This document shows, one piece after another, positions 4,177 to 11,235 of a stretch of 42,228 bases of DNA. The notes under the pieces are model-generated. The model did no database searches and was not told the DNA's origin. It saw only the letters and a program-made list of their open reading frames with translations. Positions within the stretch are counted from its first letter, which is position 1. The number at the start of each line of letters is the position of its first letter. Location: positions 1 to 42,228 of the forward strand of contig DAHUXE010000078.1 of assembly GCA_027307325.1 (NCBI GenBank), written 5' to 3'. This stretch comes from Gammaproteobacteria bacterium (lineage in GTDB: Bacteria > Pseudomonadota > Gammaproteobacteria > Steroidobacterales > Steroidobacteraceae). The translations under genes and the position numbers were made by a program.

Positions 4177-4270
4177 ATGCCCGCTCTCGGTGCCTATGTC
4201 CGATGACGACGGTAACACGGAGCGTTGTTGGCTTCTCAGGCGTTACTCTTGGGTCTATCGTCCTCAAATC

Positions 4271-5383
4271 ATGAAAGCGGCTGTTATCACACGTTACGGA
4301 TCACCGGACGTCATAAAGATACTTGATGCGCCGAAACCGGCTCCCAGAGTGGGCGAGGTCTTGATCCGGGTCCATGCAACGACGGTCAACCGGACGGATT
4401 GTGGTGAGCTCCGACCCCGCATCATCGGGCGGTTCTTTTTCGGGCTGCAGCGGCCGAGGCGCACAATTTTCGGACTGGATTTCGCCGGCGTGGTTGAAGA
4501 CGTGGGGGGCGAAGTCATGTCGTTTAGGCCGGGCGATCGCGTCTTCGGCATGTGCCCCTCGCGGAGCAATGGCGCTCACGCGGAATACGTCTGCATCCCC
4601 GAAAGAGCGCCAATCGCCATCATGCCGGCAAACACGCACTTTGACGAAGCGGTGGTCTGCGAGGGCGCTTTCTATGCGAACTCGGGGCTAAGAAAATTCC
4701 ACGTAGGGCGCGGCCACAAAATCCTGATCTACGGCGCCTCAGGCGCAATCGGCTCGGCGGCGGTGCAGCTTGCTAAGGCCTATGGCGCCGAGGTAACCGC
4801 GGTCGTCGCCACGCAACACCTGGAGCTGGTCAAATCCCTCGGCGCGGCCCGCGCCATCGACTATACCGCAGAGGATTTCACCCGCATCGGCGAGACTTTC
4901 GATTTCGTCTTCGAGGCGGTCGGGAAAACCAGCTTCTTTGGATACCGCAGACTGCTGAAACCCAAGGGGACGTTTATGGCGACAGACGTCGGACCCTGGG
5001 GGCAGTACCTGCCGCTGATACTCTGGTCGTCGATCGCAAGAAACAACAGGGTTCTCGTTCCCCTGCCGCCCCGAGGCAGCGGACACGCATTTGTCGAGTT
5101 CCTGAGAGCCCGCATGGAGGCGGGCCAGTTTCGCGCGGTCGTCGATCGAAGATATCCCCTCGATGCGATCGCCGACGCTTACCGCTATGTTGAGACAGGG
5201 AAAAAAGTAGGCATCGTTGTGATTGATGTCGCGGCCGCCGACGAAAGCGCACACGTCGCGCAAGAAGGACGAATCTTGTGCAAGCCAACGCGGGATGCCA
5301 GCGATGTGGGAAATCGGCGCAACCCGTCCAAGGCGAGCCAGAGTGAGACCTGCTTTCCGCTACTGGGGGCATCTGCGCAGTAA
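4271..5383 (+). CDS. Zinc-independent MDR-family oxidoreductase (quinone reductase / alcohol dehydrogenase-like)
   Basis: This 370-residue protein has the medium-chain dehydrogenase/reductase fold: an N-terminal GroES-like domain starting MKAAVITRYGSP, the LIRVHATTVNRTD segment, and FGLDFAGVVEDVG. A Rossmann fold follows with the NAD(P)-binding motif GASGAIGSAAVQLAKAYGAEV. The GHE motif and cysteine lobe of zinc-dependent members are missing, so I infer an NADPH-dependent quinone or enone reductase; the substrate cannot be read from sequence. The family normally ends shortly after GKKVGIVVI, but here about 45 further residues of unpatterned sequence follow, which suggests that the original stop was lost. 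The ATG at 4271 fits the family start; the longer frame from 4190 adds unrelated residues. Base composition is visibly less G+C-rich than its neighbours, suggesting acquisition by transfer. The roughly 210 bases between the ancestral transglutaminase stop and this start hold no recognisable gene. Confidence 0.75.
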   Translation: MKAAVITRYGSPDVIKILDAPKPAPRVGEVLIRVHATTVNRTDCGELRPRIIGRFFFGLQRPRRTIFGLDFAGVVEDVGGEVMSFRPGDRVFGMCPSRSNGAHAEYVCIPERAPIAIMPANTHFDEAVVCEGAFYANSGLRKFHVGRGHKILIYGASGAIGSAAVQLAKAYGAEVTAVVATQHLELVKSLGAARAIDYTAEDFTRIGETFDFVFEAVGKTSFFGYRRLLKPKGTFMATDVGPWGQYLPLILWSSIARNNRVLVPLPPRGSGHAFVEFLRARMEAGQFRAVVDRRYPLDAIADAYRYVETGKKVGIVVIDVAAADESAHVAQEGRILCKPTRDASDVGNRRNPSKASQSETCFPLLGASAQ

Positions 5384-5401: not shown

Positions 5402-7399
5402 TCAGGAAGAGTGGAACCCGATCTTCGCGTGGGTTCCGTCACAGAAGGGCTTGTTGGCGCTGCCGCCGCACCTGCAGAGGCTCGCCGACTCGACGCGCGC
5501 CACGACGCGGCCGGTGCCGCTCACGATCTCGAGATTGCCGCGCACCCGCAGTGGCCCATTGGTCTGCGGGTCGATCCGGAGCGCACCGTCGCGCACTGGC
5601 AGCGTGTCGGTCTTGCCGCTCGACGGCTCGCCGCTCGCGGTGAAGCCGATGTCGTGATGCGAGCCATCACAGTAGGGTTTGTTCTTCGAGGCGCCGCAGC
5701 GGCACAGGGTCGCACGAAAGCCGGCCGGGATGCCGTCGATCACCAGGCGCGCGCGGAAGGCGTAGGGTCCGCCTTCGCGCACCGTGGCGAGGTTGACCGG
5801 CGGCGCGGACTCGTCCGGCTCCCCGTCGAGACGGCGATAGCGGATCGCGCCCGAGGGGCAGGCGTGCGCCACTTCCACCAGGCGCTCCACCGGCATCGCG
5901 TCCGGATGGATCCAGGGACCCTTCACGTTGGCGAGAAAGACCTGCGGCGCCCAGGTCACGCAGAAGCGCGAATGGATGCAGCGCCTGGCCTCGAAGCTGA
6001 GCTCGAGCTTCTCACCACGCACCCGCTCGATGCCGTCCGCGACCTGCGCGGCAGGCGCTGCCACGGGAGCAGGCGCTGCGACCGGAGTGCGCGGTGCAGG
6101 CGCGGCGGACGGCTGATCCGCCGCCGACGGATCGGGCGCACTCAGGTCGAAGCCCCGCTGCGCACGTGCGGCAAGAGCGGCCAGCTGATCGGCGGCGGCG
6201 CGCGCGCGGCGCTCGCCGCTCGCCCGCAGCACGGCAGCTCCCTCGGCGAGCTGCGCGAGGCGCTCGACGAAGACGCGCCGGGCCGCCGGCCCAGGCGGCA
6301 GCGGGCTCGAGTCCCTGAGGGTGATGAACGTGACGCCCGCGTTACATTGTGGATTCGAGGGTCCGGCCGGCAGCCGCTCCGCTCGCTCGGCTAGCGGCGC
6401 GAGCGCCTGCATGAGGCCGATGGCGAGATCGACCGCGAGCGCCTTTTCGCTGCTTGGCCCCCGTACGCCGTACGAGTAGCCGAGGAGGCGCAGCATGAGC
6501 GCGTAGCAGGCATTGGCGAGATCGACGGTCGCGAAGGCGTCCGGGTTCTCGAGCCACACTCGCCCCTCCGGGCGCGGCGGCCGGCGCAGCACCGGATTGG
6601 TGGCCGCCGGGAACGCGGGCGCGAAAGCCGGGTTCTTGTCCTTGAGCGCGCGCAGCTCGGTGCGAATGCCGAGGAACTTCTGGTAGTGGGAGCCCGTCGA
6701 GTCGCGTGGCGCGCCCTCACCCTGCTGGACAATGGCTGCAAAGGCCGCGAGCGCGGTCTTGAGGCAGATGACCGGCTTGCAGCCGGCGAGGCTCACCTCC
6801 GCCGGCGAGAGCTGCAGCGCGCCGTCGCCGTCGAAGGCGACCGCTTCGCCGTGGTGACGCACGAAGGCCTGCAGCCCCTCGCCGAGCTGCGCGTAGAAGT
6901 CACCCACCGTGTCGTAGTCGCGGCCCATCGGTGTCAGGTGCGGCAGGTCCGTCCCGCGCACGTAGACGCGCTCGGAGACGAAGCCCGCGCCCTCGGGCTC
7001 GGTCGACTCCCGCGGCCGCTCGAGGAACACGAAATGCTGCAGCGTCTCGGCGTTGAACGGCGCGAGCTTCACCGTGATGCTGGCCGGCAGCAGGCCGGGA
7101 TCCAGCGGGAAGTTCGCGCGGCCGAAGCGCGGGGTCGCGCCGAGCGCCGACGTGATGTTCCATACCGCCGCGAGGTGTCCCATCTCCTCGATCGCGACGC
7201 CGAGGAGCACCTGGCGCCAGCGCTCGACCGCCGCCGCCTCCTCGGCATTCAGGCCCTCGCCCTCCCCGTCCTTCAGGCTGAAGGCGGCGTAGAGGTACGT
7301 GCACATCAGGTTGTGCTCGAGCTCGGAAGCCTCGTACAGCCGGTTGATGAGGATCTCGCGCTGCGTGATCGGCGCGGCGACCGCGGGGACGTCGTTCAT
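5402..7399 (-). CDS. Ferritin-like diiron domain fused to a Fer4_19-type iron-sulfur domain and two CDGSH domains
   Basis: The 665-residue product joins four metal sites. Residues 15-180 form a ferritin-like helical domain of the VioB/iminophenylpyruvate-synthase type, with ELEHN at 26-30 and EEMGH at 71-75 as likely iron ligands. A further helical part runs to about 415, then an Ala-Pro-rich linker (about 422-455). Residues 465-525 resemble the divergent 4Fe-4S domain of the YjdI type, with Cys474, Cys480 and Cys514. Two CDGSH 2Fe-2S sites follow: Cys566, Cys568, Cys577, His581 and Cys642, Cys644, Cys653, His657. The ATG at 7399 has a GGAGGT ribosome site 4 bases upstream; the longer frame to 7522 has none and no conserved sequence. 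I infer a cytoplasmic iron or redox enzyme; the substrate is unknown. It is transcribed away from the heme-porin gene. Confidence 0.8.
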   Translation of the reverse strand: MNDVPAVAAPITQREILINRLYEASELEHNLMCTYLYAAFSLKDGEGEGLNAEEAAAVERWRQVLLGVAIEEMGHLAAVWNITSALGATPRFGRANFPLDPGLLPASITVKLAPFNAETLQHFVFLERPRESTEPEGAGFVSERVYVRGTDLPHLTPMGRDYDTVGDFYAQLGEGLQAFVRHHGEAVAFDGDGALQLSPAEVSLAGCKPVICLKTALAAFAAIVQQGEGAPRDSTGSHYQKFLGIRTELRALKDKNPAFAPAFPAATNPVLRRPPRPEGRVWLENPDAFATVDLANACYALMLRLLGYSYGVRGPSSEKALAVDLAIGLMQALAPLAERAERLPAGPSNPQCNAGVTFITLRDSSPLPPGPAARRVFVERLAQLAEGAAVLRASGERRARAAADQLAALAARAQRGFDLSAPDPSAADQPSAAPAPRTPVAAPAPVAAPAAQVADGIERVRGEKLELSFEARRCIHSRFCVTWAPQVFLANVKGPWIHPDAMPVERLVEVAHACPSGAIRYRRLDGEPDESAPPVNLATVREGGPYAFRARLVIDGIPAGFRATLCRCGASKNKPYCDGSHHDIGFTASGEPSSGKTDTLPVRDGALRIDPQTNGPLRVRGNLEIVSGTGRVVARVESASLCRCGGSANKPFCDGTHAKIGFHSS

Positions 7400-7598
7400 A
7401 GCACCTCCATGATCCCGCCTGTGTCGCACAAGAAGCGCGGGCATCATTTGCGATGTTCCTACCGTACCACCCGACAACCCAGGCGAGCCAGAGCGCTGGA
7501 CGGCAATTGCCAGATTCGACAAACGGCGCGGACTGGTCCCGCGGAGCGCCAGGCGCCCGCGCCTCCAGCGCGATGCCGGCGCAGACTCGAGATTGAAC

Positions 7599-7711
7599 GG
7601 AACGGTTCCCGGCGGAACCTCTCCTCGCCCTGCGACTACGTACCTACAGAAGGTGGTCGCGCGGGTTTCATACCGCGCGAGAAGTTTCTTCGTCGCCGCG
7701 GCGAAGCCGCG
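7599..7711 (+). promoter_or_regulatory. Cluster of dyads in the 330-bp divergent intergenic region upstream of the heme-porin gene
   Basis: The gap 7400-7729 between two divergent genes holds no gene but several perfect inverted repeats. GGAAC-G-GTTCC lies at 7599-7609, and it shares a half-site with GGTTCC-cggc-GGAACC at 7604-7619, giving three alternating half-sites that look like an operator. Then TCGCGCGG/CCGCGCGA (7657-7664 with 7673-7680) and CGCGGC/GCCGCG (7697-7702 with 7706-7711, loop GAA) form two hairpins; the second ends 5 bases before the AGGGAGGAG ribosome site at 7716-7724. I see no convincing -35/-10 pair. A regulator binding site plus leader hairpins is an inference. Confidence 0.4.
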
Positions 7712-7729
7712 TCTCAGGGAGGAGTTGGT

Positions 7730-9064
7730 ATGTCTCGCGTTCTTAGAGCTTCGGTCGGTACTCTTCTTGCGTTCCTGGTTCTCAACATCGGTCTGCCGAG
7801 CGCCTACGCGGTCCCGGTATTTGCGCGGCAGACCGGCCTGCCCTGCCAGTCATGCCATACCGTCGCGCCCGAGCTCACTCCTTTCGGACGTGATTTCAAG
7901 CTGCGCGGTTTCGTCCTCTCAGCGTTACCCAAGATCGAGAGCAAGACCTCCACGCCATTGAGCCTCAACCGCATGCCGGCGTTTGCACTGGAGGTCGACC
8001 TGGCCGACAGCTTCACCCAGACGAGTCAGCCGGGTACGCAGAACGGCAACGTGCAATTTCCATCCAAGTTGAAGTTGTTCGCCGCCGGCGCCCTCGGGGA
8101 CAACGTCGGCATGTTCTCGTATCTCGAGTACACACAGCCAGACGACCACTTCTCCATCGACCTCACCGACATTCGCGTTGTCGGCAGCGGCGAGATCGCG
8201 GGCAAGGACGCAATCTACGGGCTCACGATCAACAACGCACCGACGCTCGAGGACCCGTGGAACACACTCAACGTCTGGTCCTTCCCTCATGTGCACTCCG
8301 AGGTTGCGCCCACGCCGGCTACCGCCGCGCTTCTGGGTGGAACCCTGGCCGATTCCGGATTGGTCGCCGGTGTCGGCGGCTATATCCTCTGGGACAATCA
8401 CTGGTATGCCGACGTCACGCTCTACCGCTCGGCGCCCACCGGCGCGGCCCAGCCGATAGTCAAGCCCGGCGCCACGGAGGGTCTGGTGCCTTACGCAAGA
8501 TTCGCGTGGCAGAGCACCCTGGGGCCGGACTACCTGGAACTCGGCGCTTCGGCGATCCAGGCGAAGTTCATCCAGGGCATCTCGGGTGCGGGTGCCGGCG
8601 GTCTTGACGATCGCTACCGCGATATCAGCGCCGACGCGCAGTTCGAACACCCCGTGGGCGACAACCTGCTTACCCTGCATGCCGCCTACATCCGTGAGCA
8701 GCAGACCCTCGATTCGAGCTCCGCCGCAAGCCTGTCCAACCCGGCTGATTCGCTGAATACCCTGCGAGCGGACGGAACCTTCCTGCTGCGGCCGTTCACG
8801 GCGTTCTCTCTGGCTTACTTCTCTACCACCGGCAGCCGGGACCCGCAGCTCTACACCGCCGCACCGATCACCGGCTCTGCGGGCAAACCGGACAGTGATG
8901 GATGGATTCTGCAGGTGGATTTTCTGCCATTGCAGAACATACAGCTCATCGTGCAGTACACCCTCTACGACAAATTCAACGGCACCCGCAACAACTACGA
9001 TAGCGCGGGCCGCAGCGCGGCCGACAACGACACGCTATTCCTGCTGGCGATGTTCGATTTCTAG
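7730..9064 (+). CDS. Outer-membrane porin with an N-terminal c-type heme motif (Cyc2-like fused cytochrome-porin)
   Basis: The 444-residue protein starts with a signal peptide (cleavage expected after AYA27). The mature protein begins VPVFARQTGLPC and carries one heme motif CQSCH at residues 39-43, then PELTPFGRDFKL. The rest is a series of amphipathic beta strands ending in Phe (AMFDF), as outer-membrane barrels do. This order, a single small heme segment followed by a porin of about 400 residues, is that of the Cyc2 family, whose characterised members oxidise Fe(II) at the cell surface. The same FARQTG-CxxCH-ELTPFGR start also occurs in porins of bacteria not known to oxidise iron, so the function remains inferred. 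Start ATG 7730 follows a strong AGGGAGGAG site. It sits divergent from the iron-sulfur/ferritin fusion, which would fit a shared redox or iron theme, and convergent with prfC. Confidence 0.75.
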   Translation: MSRVLRASVGTLLAFLVLNIGLPSAYAVPVFARQTGLPCQSCHTVAPELTPFGRDFKLRGFVLSALPKIESKTSTPLSLNRMPAFALEVDLADSFTQTSQPGTQNGNVQFPSKLKLFAAGALGDNVGMFSYLEYTQPDDHFSIDLTDIRVVGSGEIAGKDAIYGLTINNAPTLEDPWNTLNVWSFPHVHSEVAPTPATAALLGGTLADSGLVAGVGGYILWDNHWYADVTLYRSAPTGAAQPIVKPGATEGLVPYARFAWQSTLGPDYLELGASAIQAKFIQGISGAGAGGLDDRYRDISADAQFEHPVGDNLLTLHAAYIREQQTLDSSSAASLSNPADSLNTLRADGTFLLRPFTAFSLAYFSTTGSRDPQLYTAAPITGSAGKPDSDGWILQVDFLPLQNIQLIVQYTLYDKFNGTRNNYDSAGRSAADNDTLFLLAMFDF

Positions 9065-9131
9065 CGCGCCGTGCGGCCGCGCAGAGCGCGGGCATCTGGT
9101 ACGTGATCCCCCGGCAGCGCCGGACGAAATT

Positions 9132-10721
9132 TCAGGACAAGGCGTGCTCGCGGGTCTCGTGGAAGACGATCCCCGGCCAGCGCTCGATCGTCAGCTGGAG
9201 ATTGACGCGCGAGGGCGCGAGATACACCAGCGCGCCGGCGTGATCGACCGCCAGGTGCTCGTAGGCGCGGGCGCGGAACTCCTCGAGGCGCTGCGCGTCG
9301 GCGCCGTCGATCCAGCGTGCGGTATGCACCGTGACCGGCTCGAACACGCACTGCACGCCGTACTCATCCGCGAGACGGAAGGCCACCACCTCGAACTGCA
9401 GCTGGCCGACCGCGCCGAGGATCAGCTCGTTGTTGCGCAGCGGCCGGAACAGTTGCGTCGCCCCCTCCTCGCACAGCTGCGACAGGCCCTTCTGCAGCGC
9501 CTTCATGCGCAGCGGATCCCTGAGCACCGCGCGCCGGAAGATTTCCGGGGCGAAGTTCGGCACACCGGTGAATGCGAGCCGCTCGCCCTGGGTGAAGCTG
9601 TCCCCGATGTTGATGGTGCCGTAGTTGTGAAGCCCGATGATGTCCCCGGCCCAGGCCTCCTCGGCCTGCGTACGATCGGCCGCCATGAAGGTGAGCGCAT
9701 CGGCGACCCGCACCTCCTTGGCCATGCGCACGTGGTAGAGGCGCATGCCGCGCGTGTACTTGCCGGCGCACAGGCGCAGGAACGCGATCCGGTCCCGATG
9801 CTGAGGGTCCATGTTGGCCTGGATCTTGAAGACGAAGCCCGCGAGCGCTGGCTCCTCGGGGGCGACGGTGCGCTCGCGCGCGGCGCGCGGCAGCGGTCCC
9901 GGAGCGTGTGTCACGAAGGCCGCGAGCAGCTCCTCGACCCCGAAGTTGTTGATGGCGGAGCCGAAGAATACCGGTGTCTGCCGTCCGGCGCGGTAGGCCT
10001 CACGGTCGAAGCTCCCGGTCGCCCCCTTCACCAGCTCGATCTCCTCGAGGAAGGCTGGCGCCATATCCCCGAGAAACTCGCGCGCGGCGGCGCTCGCGAG
10101 GCCGTCGATGGTGCGGTTCTCGCCGACCCGGCCGCGCTCGCCCGCCGCGTAGGCGTAGATGCGGTCCTCGGCGAGGTGGTAGATGCCGCGCAGCTCGCGC
10201 CCCATGCCGATCGGCCAGGTCACGGGCGCCGTGCCGATGCCCAGCACCTTCTCGATCTCGTCCAGCAGCTCGACGGGAGGACGCCCGTCGCGGTCGAGCT
10301 TGTTGATGAAGGTCATGATCGGCGTGTCGCGCAGCCGACAGACCTCCATGAGCTTGATGGTGCGCTCCTCGACCCCCTTGGCGCAGTCGATCACCATGAG
10401 CGCCGAGTCCACCGCGGTGAGCGTACGGTAGGTGTCCTCGGAGAAGTCCTCGTGCCCCGGCGTATCGAGCAGGTTGACGACGCAGTCGCGATACGGGAAC
10501 TGCATCACCGAGGAGGTCACCGAGATGCCGCGCTGCTGCTCGAGCCGCATCCAGTCGGAGGTGGCGTGGCGGGCGGCCTTGCGGCCCTTGACGGTGCCCG
10601 CCATCTGGATGGCGCCGCCGAACAGCAGCAGCTTCTCGGTGAGGGTGGTCTTGCCCGCGTCGGGGTGCGAAATGATCGCGAAGGTTCGTCGCCGATGGAT
10701 TTCGGCAGCCGGATCGGCCAT
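9132..10721 (-). CDS. prfC: Peptide chain release factor 3 (RF3)
   Basis: RF3 is a translational GTPase that removes RF1/RF2 from the ribosome after peptide release. The 529-residue product (the E. coli length) begins [20 protein letters not shown], with the G1 loop HPDAGKTT at residues 19-26, the switch region around RGISVTSS, the G3 motif DTPGHEDF and the G4 motif NKLDRDG, followed by the domain II and III sequence typical of RF3. I chose the ATG at 10721 because the family begins there; the longer frame to 10763 would overlap rimI. It is the last gene of a minus-strand run pssA, uracil-DNA glycosylase, rimI, prfC, lying 16 bases after rimI. Confidence 0.96.
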
Positions 10722-10737
10722 GAGGATTGCCTGCGTC

Positions 10738-11235
10738 TCAGCCCGAGCGGCTGCGTGAGGCACGCAATCCGAGCCGCAGCACGGCCGCGTCCTCGCGCCC
10801 AGCGACGGCCTGGTAATAGCCGCGCCGCATGCCGACCTGCTCGAAGCCGTGTGCCAGGTAGAGCCGGATGGCCGCGGTATTGGACGGACGCACTTCGAGG
10901 AACGCCTCTTTCATGCCGGCGGCCGCGGCGCGCTCGACCAGGAGCGTCAGCAGCCGCGCCCCGAGGCCCTGGCAGCGGAACGCCTCGGCGACGCACAGAT
11001 TGAGAATGTGCGCCTCGCCGGCGCCGACGCTCATCACGGCGTAGCCCGCGACTTGCTGCCCGAGAGTCGCCACGCGGCAGGTGTACCCGACCCGCAGGCA
11101 ATCCCGGAAGATCCCCTCGCTCCAGGGAAACTGGTACGAGGAACGCTCGATCGCGACGACCTCGGGAACGTCGGCGTCGCGCATCGCGCGCATCGCATCC
11201 GGCGATCCGCCGAGCAATTCAGGAGCGGTGGCCAT
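10738..11235 (-). CDS. rimI: Ribosomal protein S18 alanine N-acetyltransferase
   Basis: This 165-residue GNAT acetyltransferase matches RimI, which acetylates the N-terminal alanine of ribosomal protein S18 using acetyl-CoA. Visible marks are [17 protein letters not shown] near the start, the acetyl-CoA loop [10 protein letters not shown] at about 87-96, and LEVRPSN (Glu114) with LYLAHGF (Tyr126), which correspond to the catalytic Glu and Tyr. The ATG at 11235 is preceded by GAGCGAGGACCG, a usable ribosome site, and overlaps the end of the glycosylase gene by 17 bases, indicating coupled translation. A downstream start at MRAMRD is possible and would give a protein closer to the 148-residue E. 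coli enzyme. Confidence 0.92.

Follow-up and report, generated by a model that had tools for sequence, protein, structure and literature searches.

An open reading frame of a Steroidobacteraceae bacterium (contig DAHUXE010000078.1, assembly GCA_027307325.1) was found to encode a Cyc2-family cytochrome-porin, designated here P0001, which lies outside Cyc2 cluster 1. We consider it fairly likely that this protein passes electrons from dissolved Fe(II) inward and that its gene entered the lineage by lateral insertion. The window, i.e., the whole stretch of DNA analyzed, comprises 42,228 nucleotides, and the features discussed below are collected in Table 1.

Table 1. Features of the window and of related loci in the same genome; positions refer to the window unless a locus is named.
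Feature	Position	Strand	Length, basis or remark
Cyc2-family fused cytochrome-porin, orphan copy	7730-9064	+	444 aa
Signal peptide, approximately residues 1-26, cleavage inferred before Ala27	7730-7807	+	read by eye
Cytochrome motif: AVPVFARQT (27-35), CQSCH heme site (39-43), PEL (47-49)	7808-7876	+	criteria of PMC8406198
Predicted beta barrel with 16 strands (residues 84-441) and a C-terminal Phe	7979-9061	+	low-confidence model
Gene with ferritin-like, divergent 4Fe-4S and two CDGSH stretches	5402-7522	-	neighbor; VioB match weak and well under the cut-off
prfC (peptide chain release factor 3)	9132-10763	-	neighbor, converging on the Cyc2 gene
MtoAB/MtrAB-type cluster	L206 4055-12776 (own contig C45)		profile matches
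Second Cyc2-like gene: FASQT motif, GPAL after the heme site, one in-frame TAG	L069 4612-5991 (own contig C165)		
Azurin, directly after the second Cyc2-like gene	L069 6018-6512 (C165)		TIGR02695 over cut-off

The frame opens with ATG, preceded just 5' by GGGAGGAG, a ribosome-binding-like sequence; the longer in-frame ORF at 6686-9064 is merely an upstream open frame. The protein ends in ...LAMFDF and carries CQSCH as its single CXXCH. The preliminary description had given the same coordinates, a signal-like start, this heme site and the terminal Phe, and it was correct in each. Published criteria for Cyc2 comprise at least 365 residues, a CXXCH motif with AXPXFAR[Q/K][T/Y] upstream and PXL downstream, and a 16-stranded porin (PMC8406198). 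P0001, with 444 residues, one CXXCH, the upstream motif in the form AVPVFARQT and PEL four residues past the heme site, is a member of the Cyc2 family by these published sequence criteria. The spacing between its FARQTG motif and CXXCH is identical to that in Mariprofundus erugo. In the alignment of 23 rows (A1), 53 columns were invariant, C39, C42 and H43 among them, and the FAR...CXXCH...PXL...FGR.FK block was conserved, which excludes a porin with an accidental CXXCH; a chance ORF is excluded by the conservation over the full length. No Pfam or NCBIfam model matched P0001 at E ≤ 1 and phmmer found no PDB match at E ≤ 10; the Cyc2-type family seems to lie outside the coverage of the Pfam and NCBIfam libraries.

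Of 100 genomes of the GTDB family to which the window belongs, 41 (the own genome included) had homologues at E ≤ 1e-3. The best foreign match in that set (1.1e-110) shared 44% identity, the identity to the FAR-type loci of the family being 36-44%, and among 217 family genomes the closest foreign match, in G016, was also at 44%. Of the 58 genomes of the genus, 40 (counting the own one) had a homologue at E ≤ 1e-20, and all near-full-length matches besides the own copy were at most 41% identical. Nine named plasmid records, from Caballeronia, Ideonella, Methylocystis and others, matched over at least 80% of the query with 27-36% identity. Identical Cyc2-like match values were noted for L065 (CP084173.1, a plasmid labelled Acidithiobacillus ferrooxidans) and H7 (NC_009469.1, Acidiphilium cryptum), which may mean plasmid DNA in common or a mixed culture.

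AF2 supplied with 23 distant relatives predicted 16 strands after an N-terminal helical segment, at low confidence (mean pLDDT 56, pTM 0.60); from the single sequence, pLDDT was 32. Foldseek returned 663 PDB matches at E ≤ 10, of which 39 were at E ≤ 1e-3 (best E 9e-7). By title these 39 were porins or engineered porins, with the exception of 9j9n, titled only artificial metalloprotein; their TM-scores were 0.32-0.45 relative to query length and 0.35-0.55 relative to target length, with rmsd of 7-12 Å. The model and the Foldseek matches support a predicted porin barrel. Of the 16-stranded barrel with an internal heme plug that had been anticipated, the strand number appears in the low-confidence model, and the plug position is not discerned at pLDDT 56.

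The placement of P0001 among the Cyc2 clusters was then examined by phylogeny. A scan of genome contigs for cluster-1-type Cyc2 yielded 301 confirmed loci, and the best 80 of the 301 were retained; named references among these best 80 include M. erugo, M. micogutta, Ghiorsea and Candidatus Thiodiazotropha. Twenty-eight of the 80 were offered to the tree, 27 were recovered and 20 entered the careful tree, as did seven of the ten FARKY loci recovered, which serve as an inferred stand-in for cluster 3. The first tree had 86 rows; the careful tree has 75 and omits near-duplicates, unnamed zetaproteobacterial rows, the long row L136 and the broken L002 and L010, as well as L046, missed by the extraction pattern. 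It was built without the chromosomal Cyc2 of A. ferrooxidans, Cyt572, Cyc2-PV1 or rows labelled Gallionellaceae or Chlorobi. In the 75-row tree, cluster 1 was supported at 100/99 and the zetaproteobacterial FARKY group at 100/100, and the other 48 rows, among which are P0001 and the two proteins of G745, formed one clade (99/98). Within this clade P0001 paired with L003, weakly (89/70), and the two were joined by L034 (90/87). The identity of P0001 to cluster-1 proteins was only 16-21%, and a cluster-1 neutrophile Cyc2 is excluded, P0001 being outside that clade. The preliminary description had named placement outside the Cyc2 clades as an argument against its reading; phylogeny put the protein inside the family and outside cluster 1.

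The meaning of the 48-row clade was approached via rusticyanin. Among 369 genomes of the class, 64 had a rusticyanin match, and one (G691) lay above the curated cut-off. When the four strongest of these genomes were searched with A1, Cyc2 matches were found only in G745 (two); G691, the sole genome above the cut-off, had no match to A1. One of the two G745 loci runs from cyc2 through a cupredoxin-like gene and cox-like and assembly-like genes (these middle ones named by eye) to the rusticyanin match, which scores 137 bits, below the cut-off of 146.7. Such rus operons have been described in Acidithiobacillus, Acidiferrobacter and Acidihalobacter (PMC10654088). In the tree, P0001 is accordingly a Cyc2-family protein on the side of the Cyc2 of rusticyanin-type operons and outside cluster 1; a possible grouping with cluster 2 is suggested by the clade shared with G745, whose rusticyanin is sub-cut-off, and cluster 3 enters only via the inferred proxy. 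Clusters 1 and 3 have both been reported in Zetaproteobacteria (PMC7029218), and a FeGenie-based study assigned the Cyc2 of all its 25 Cyc2-bearing MAGs to cluster 3 (PMC13264449). The authors of the reference tree expressed higher confidence for cluster 1, of which Cyc2-PV1 was tested biochemically, and regarded cluster 3 as the most uncertain (PMC8406198). P0001 is not of the cluster in which Fe(II) oxidation is safest to infer. The preliminary description is therefore partly supported: the Cyc2 class stands, given the sequence criteria and the clade common with rusticyanin-type-operon Cyc2, and Fe(II) oxidation by P0001, whose gene also lacks the usual adjoining cytochrome, is a putative activity.

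P0001 differs from most of its relatives in lacking an adjoining cytochrome, cupredoxin or oxidase gene. For the neighbor count, family loci from the 100-genome search were taken, L010 (in-frame stop) being left out and L030 and L031, of another subclade, counted apart. In 25 of the 26 usable FAR-type loci a two-heme cytochrome ORF follows directly downstream on the same strand; L003, which is most closely related to P0001, is the one locus that departs from this. L034, from another family of the class, and P0001 itself likewise have no adjacent downstream diheme cytochrome. On the plasmids, an annotated c-type cytochrome was the next gene in six of the seven loci examined (of the nine matches); in the seventh, from Paraburkholderia, it lies two genes upstream. 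For Acetobacteraceae, Cyc2 with a mono- or diheme cytochrome next to it has already been published (PMC10715153).

A cupredoxin-linked variant does occur in the genome and pertains to the paralogue on C165, not to P0001. Upstream of that gene, on the same stretch (L069 1-6512), are an 11-heme frame truncated at the contig edge and a SPOR/TPR protein. In the same subclade a cupredoxin-like gene was seen by eye downstream in L030 and L088, and none was flagged for L031.

The surroundings of the Cyc2 gene were compared with 13 prfC stretches of relatives. In three of them prfC lies directly beside the ferritin/CDGSH gene, at 73 bp in G889, 55 bp in G845 and 107 bp in G069 (between match ends); in the window the two are 1609 bp apart, and the Cyc2 gene lies in this interval. 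In G852 the pair is separated by other ORFs, and in the remaining 9 of 13 stretches, some of which end soon past prfC, prfC has no ferritin/CDGSH match next to it; the site is therefore variable within the genus. A Cyc2 match at E ≤ 1e-8 was absent from all 13 stretches. The GC content of the Cyc2 gene is 62.2%, against 69.5% for the window. Three short repeat matches were detected around the site, none of them flanking the gene. Since the Cyc2 gene splits a pair adjacent in three of 13 relatives and is low in GC, it probably arrived there by lateral insertion, without its usual partner gene; insertion into this lineage is the simplest reading of the interrupted pair and the GC content taken together.

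Two further observations concern this region. The zinc-type alcohol dehydrogenase gene at 4190-5383 of the window (60% GC) is as GC-poor as the Cyc2 gene. L310 and L312 show no match to it in the interval from the transglutaminase-like gene to the ferritin/CDGSH gene, and it is a probable second insertion near the Cyc2 gene. In G852 the stretch between prfC and the ferritin/CDGSH gene (L311 1887-4448) holds other ORFs, one of which appeared TIR-domain-like by eye, so repeated insertion at this spot is possible.

The rest of the genome (completeness 97.88, contamination 1.44) was searched for components with which P0001 might work. The sampled contigs have a GC content of 0.68-0.70, which speaks mildly against mis-binning. 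A lack of c-type cytochrome maturation genes, another argument foreseen against the Cyc2 reading, was not encountered: two PF01578 matches lie side by side, the larger being CcmF/NrfE over the NCBIfam cut-off. The Cytochrom_C profile gave 26 matches at E ≤ 1, 25 of them over the cut-off, and the cbb3 subunits CcoO and CcoP and a HiPIP were found. A search for RuBisCO in the same genome gave no match, therefore no sign of the Calvin cycle. On contig C45 lies a multiheme cluster with an MtrB/PioB porin (PF11854, 1.7e-97; TIGR03509 over cut-off), a DmsE-family decaheme cytochrome (TIGR03508 over cut-off), NapC/NirT tetraheme, monoheme, diheme and hexaheme cytochromes, and then NrfD. With a single decaheme gene and without another of MtrC size on the contig, the cluster looks MtoAB-like. 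An MtrB-type porin was detected in 16 of the 58 genus genomes (12 over cut-off), and 10 of the 12 MtrB-type stretches of genus relatives (L273-L282) were MtrCAB-like by heme-motif counts: all ten carry a ten-heme ORF with a length of some 800 aa or above, which in nine of them (not L274) is joined by a second ten-heme ORF and in eight by a seven-heme ORF.

The search for periplasmic cytochrome partners, proposed at the outset as a check, brought up a candidate, a diheme protein encoded on the Mto-like contig (L206 9028-9657). Among 44 own cytochrome entries (21 distinct sequences) it was the top match for all 32 Cyc2-partner cytochromes of other loci, scoring 90-249 bits, the next own protein reaching 54-83 bits. 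Its identity to the partners was 31-61%, and 42-61% within the family. In a quick tree it formed one clade with seven partners (SH-aLRT 98), and the other own dihemes were placed apart from it, in part on long branches. Two-heme ORFs of 170-280 aa were absent from the 12 MtrB-type stretches of the genus relatives, of which the Mto-like L271 and L272 end at contig edges.

Alongside the observed sequence anatomy, family placement, interrupted gene pair and accompanying components, we infer the fold details, heme loading, substrate, direction and partner as follows. P0001 would be exported and heme attached at CQSCH by the Ccm system; the barrel would sit in the outer membrane, plugged on the periplasmic side by the single-heme segment. 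Dissolved Fe(II) would enter the pore and give an electron to the heme, by analogy with the tested Cyc2 proteins, and from the heme it would reach a cytochrome in the periplasm, for which the diheme protein of the Mto-like locus is the probable candidate, and from this carrier the cbb3 oxidase. Most probably, then, the protein serves dissolved Fe(II) as an electron port. More tentatively, a Cyc2 inserted without its partner may have been wired into a pre-existing MtoAB-type system via the Cyc1-like diheme of the Mto-like locus, a proposal that we regard as possible rather than probable. If true, it would place electron inlets for dissolved and for solid Fe(II) in one organism without detected RuBisCO. 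The surface electron-transfer role put forward in the preliminary description is plausible and is strengthened by the MtoAB-like cluster.

The direction of electron flow and the substrate both admit other readings. Under low oxygen the same protein might run mainly outward, with Fe(III) or some other acceptor receiving the electrons, as is suggested by the Cyc2 isoforms placed in a ferric iron reduction pathway of acidithiobacilli (PMC10715153), by the MtrCAB-like look of 10 of the 12 MtrB-type loci of genus relatives and by the failure to find RuBisCO. However, the multiheme contig of this genome, with its one decaheme gene, is MtoAB-like, and cbb3 oxidase subunits are present, so that we find outward flow unlikely. 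About as improbable, in our view, is a redox-active surface protein with a use outside iron respiration, be it another metal, a donor of organic or humic nature, or the sensing of iron. Many organisms that carry members of the family are not known to oxidize iron, and other functions have been left open (PMC8406198), iron sensing has been mentioned (PMC12016527), and an orphan gene would fit such a use; yet positive evidence points to no alternative substrate, and the co-occurring MtoAB-like cluster favors iron.

A recently acquired gene that is decaying or unexpressed would also account for an orphan of low GC content. The other Cyc2-like gene of the genome has an in-frame TAG, and a scan of 7500-9200 for sigma-70-like promoters gave none, where 0.2 was expected in shuffles. 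That scan covers one promoter type only, though, and the frame of 444 aa is intact, with conserved heme and motif residues and a ribosome-binding-like sequence, which makes decay a very improbable explanation. The inward transfer of electrons from dissolved Fe(II) remains the reading that we prefer.

Microbial iron oxidation is commonly called from genomes by means of Cyc2, and the least certain calls are those of a lone Cyc2 outside cluster 1 in a genome with no obvious carbon-fixation pathway. The mere occurrence of Cyc2 here is not new: Cyc2-like genes have already been reported from a Steroidobacteraceae MAG (MAG 28; PMC8357290), and Cyc2 together with MtoAB is known from Sideroxydans (PMC12016527). 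The genome is a useful case because a separable-looking acquisition stands beside an MtoAB-like route and a candidate shared carrier, and it can therefore be tested with defined proteins whether a partnerless Cyc2 still oxidizes iron, and via which periplasmic protein.

Compared with the Cyc2 loci of the same GTDB family and of the named plasmids, P0001 shows the same full-length homology, but the downstream cytochrome is theirs and not its own. With the cluster-2 Cyc2 of the Acidithiobacillus and Acidiferrobacter rus operons it shares the signal-like start, the FAR motif, one CXXCH, PXL and the predicted barrel, whereas it is a lone gene without cup, cox or rus neighbors. The domain order and the FARQTG motif with its spacing to CXXCH are as in cluster 1 (Mariprofundus, Gallionellaceae, Chlorobi), from which P0001 is set apart by its separate, strongly supported clade and the low identity given above. 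A parallel at the level of the genome is offered by Sideroxydans lithotrophicus ES-1, which likewise combines Cyc2-type and MtoAB-type routes (PMC12016527). The Mto cluster of ES-1, as described there, consists of MtoA, MtoB, CymA/ImoA and MtoD, and that of C45 is similar, with extra cytochromes. ES-1 is, however, an iron-oxidizing isolate with three Cyc2 copies (PMC12016527), while the present organism is known here from its sequence, with no match to RuBisCO.
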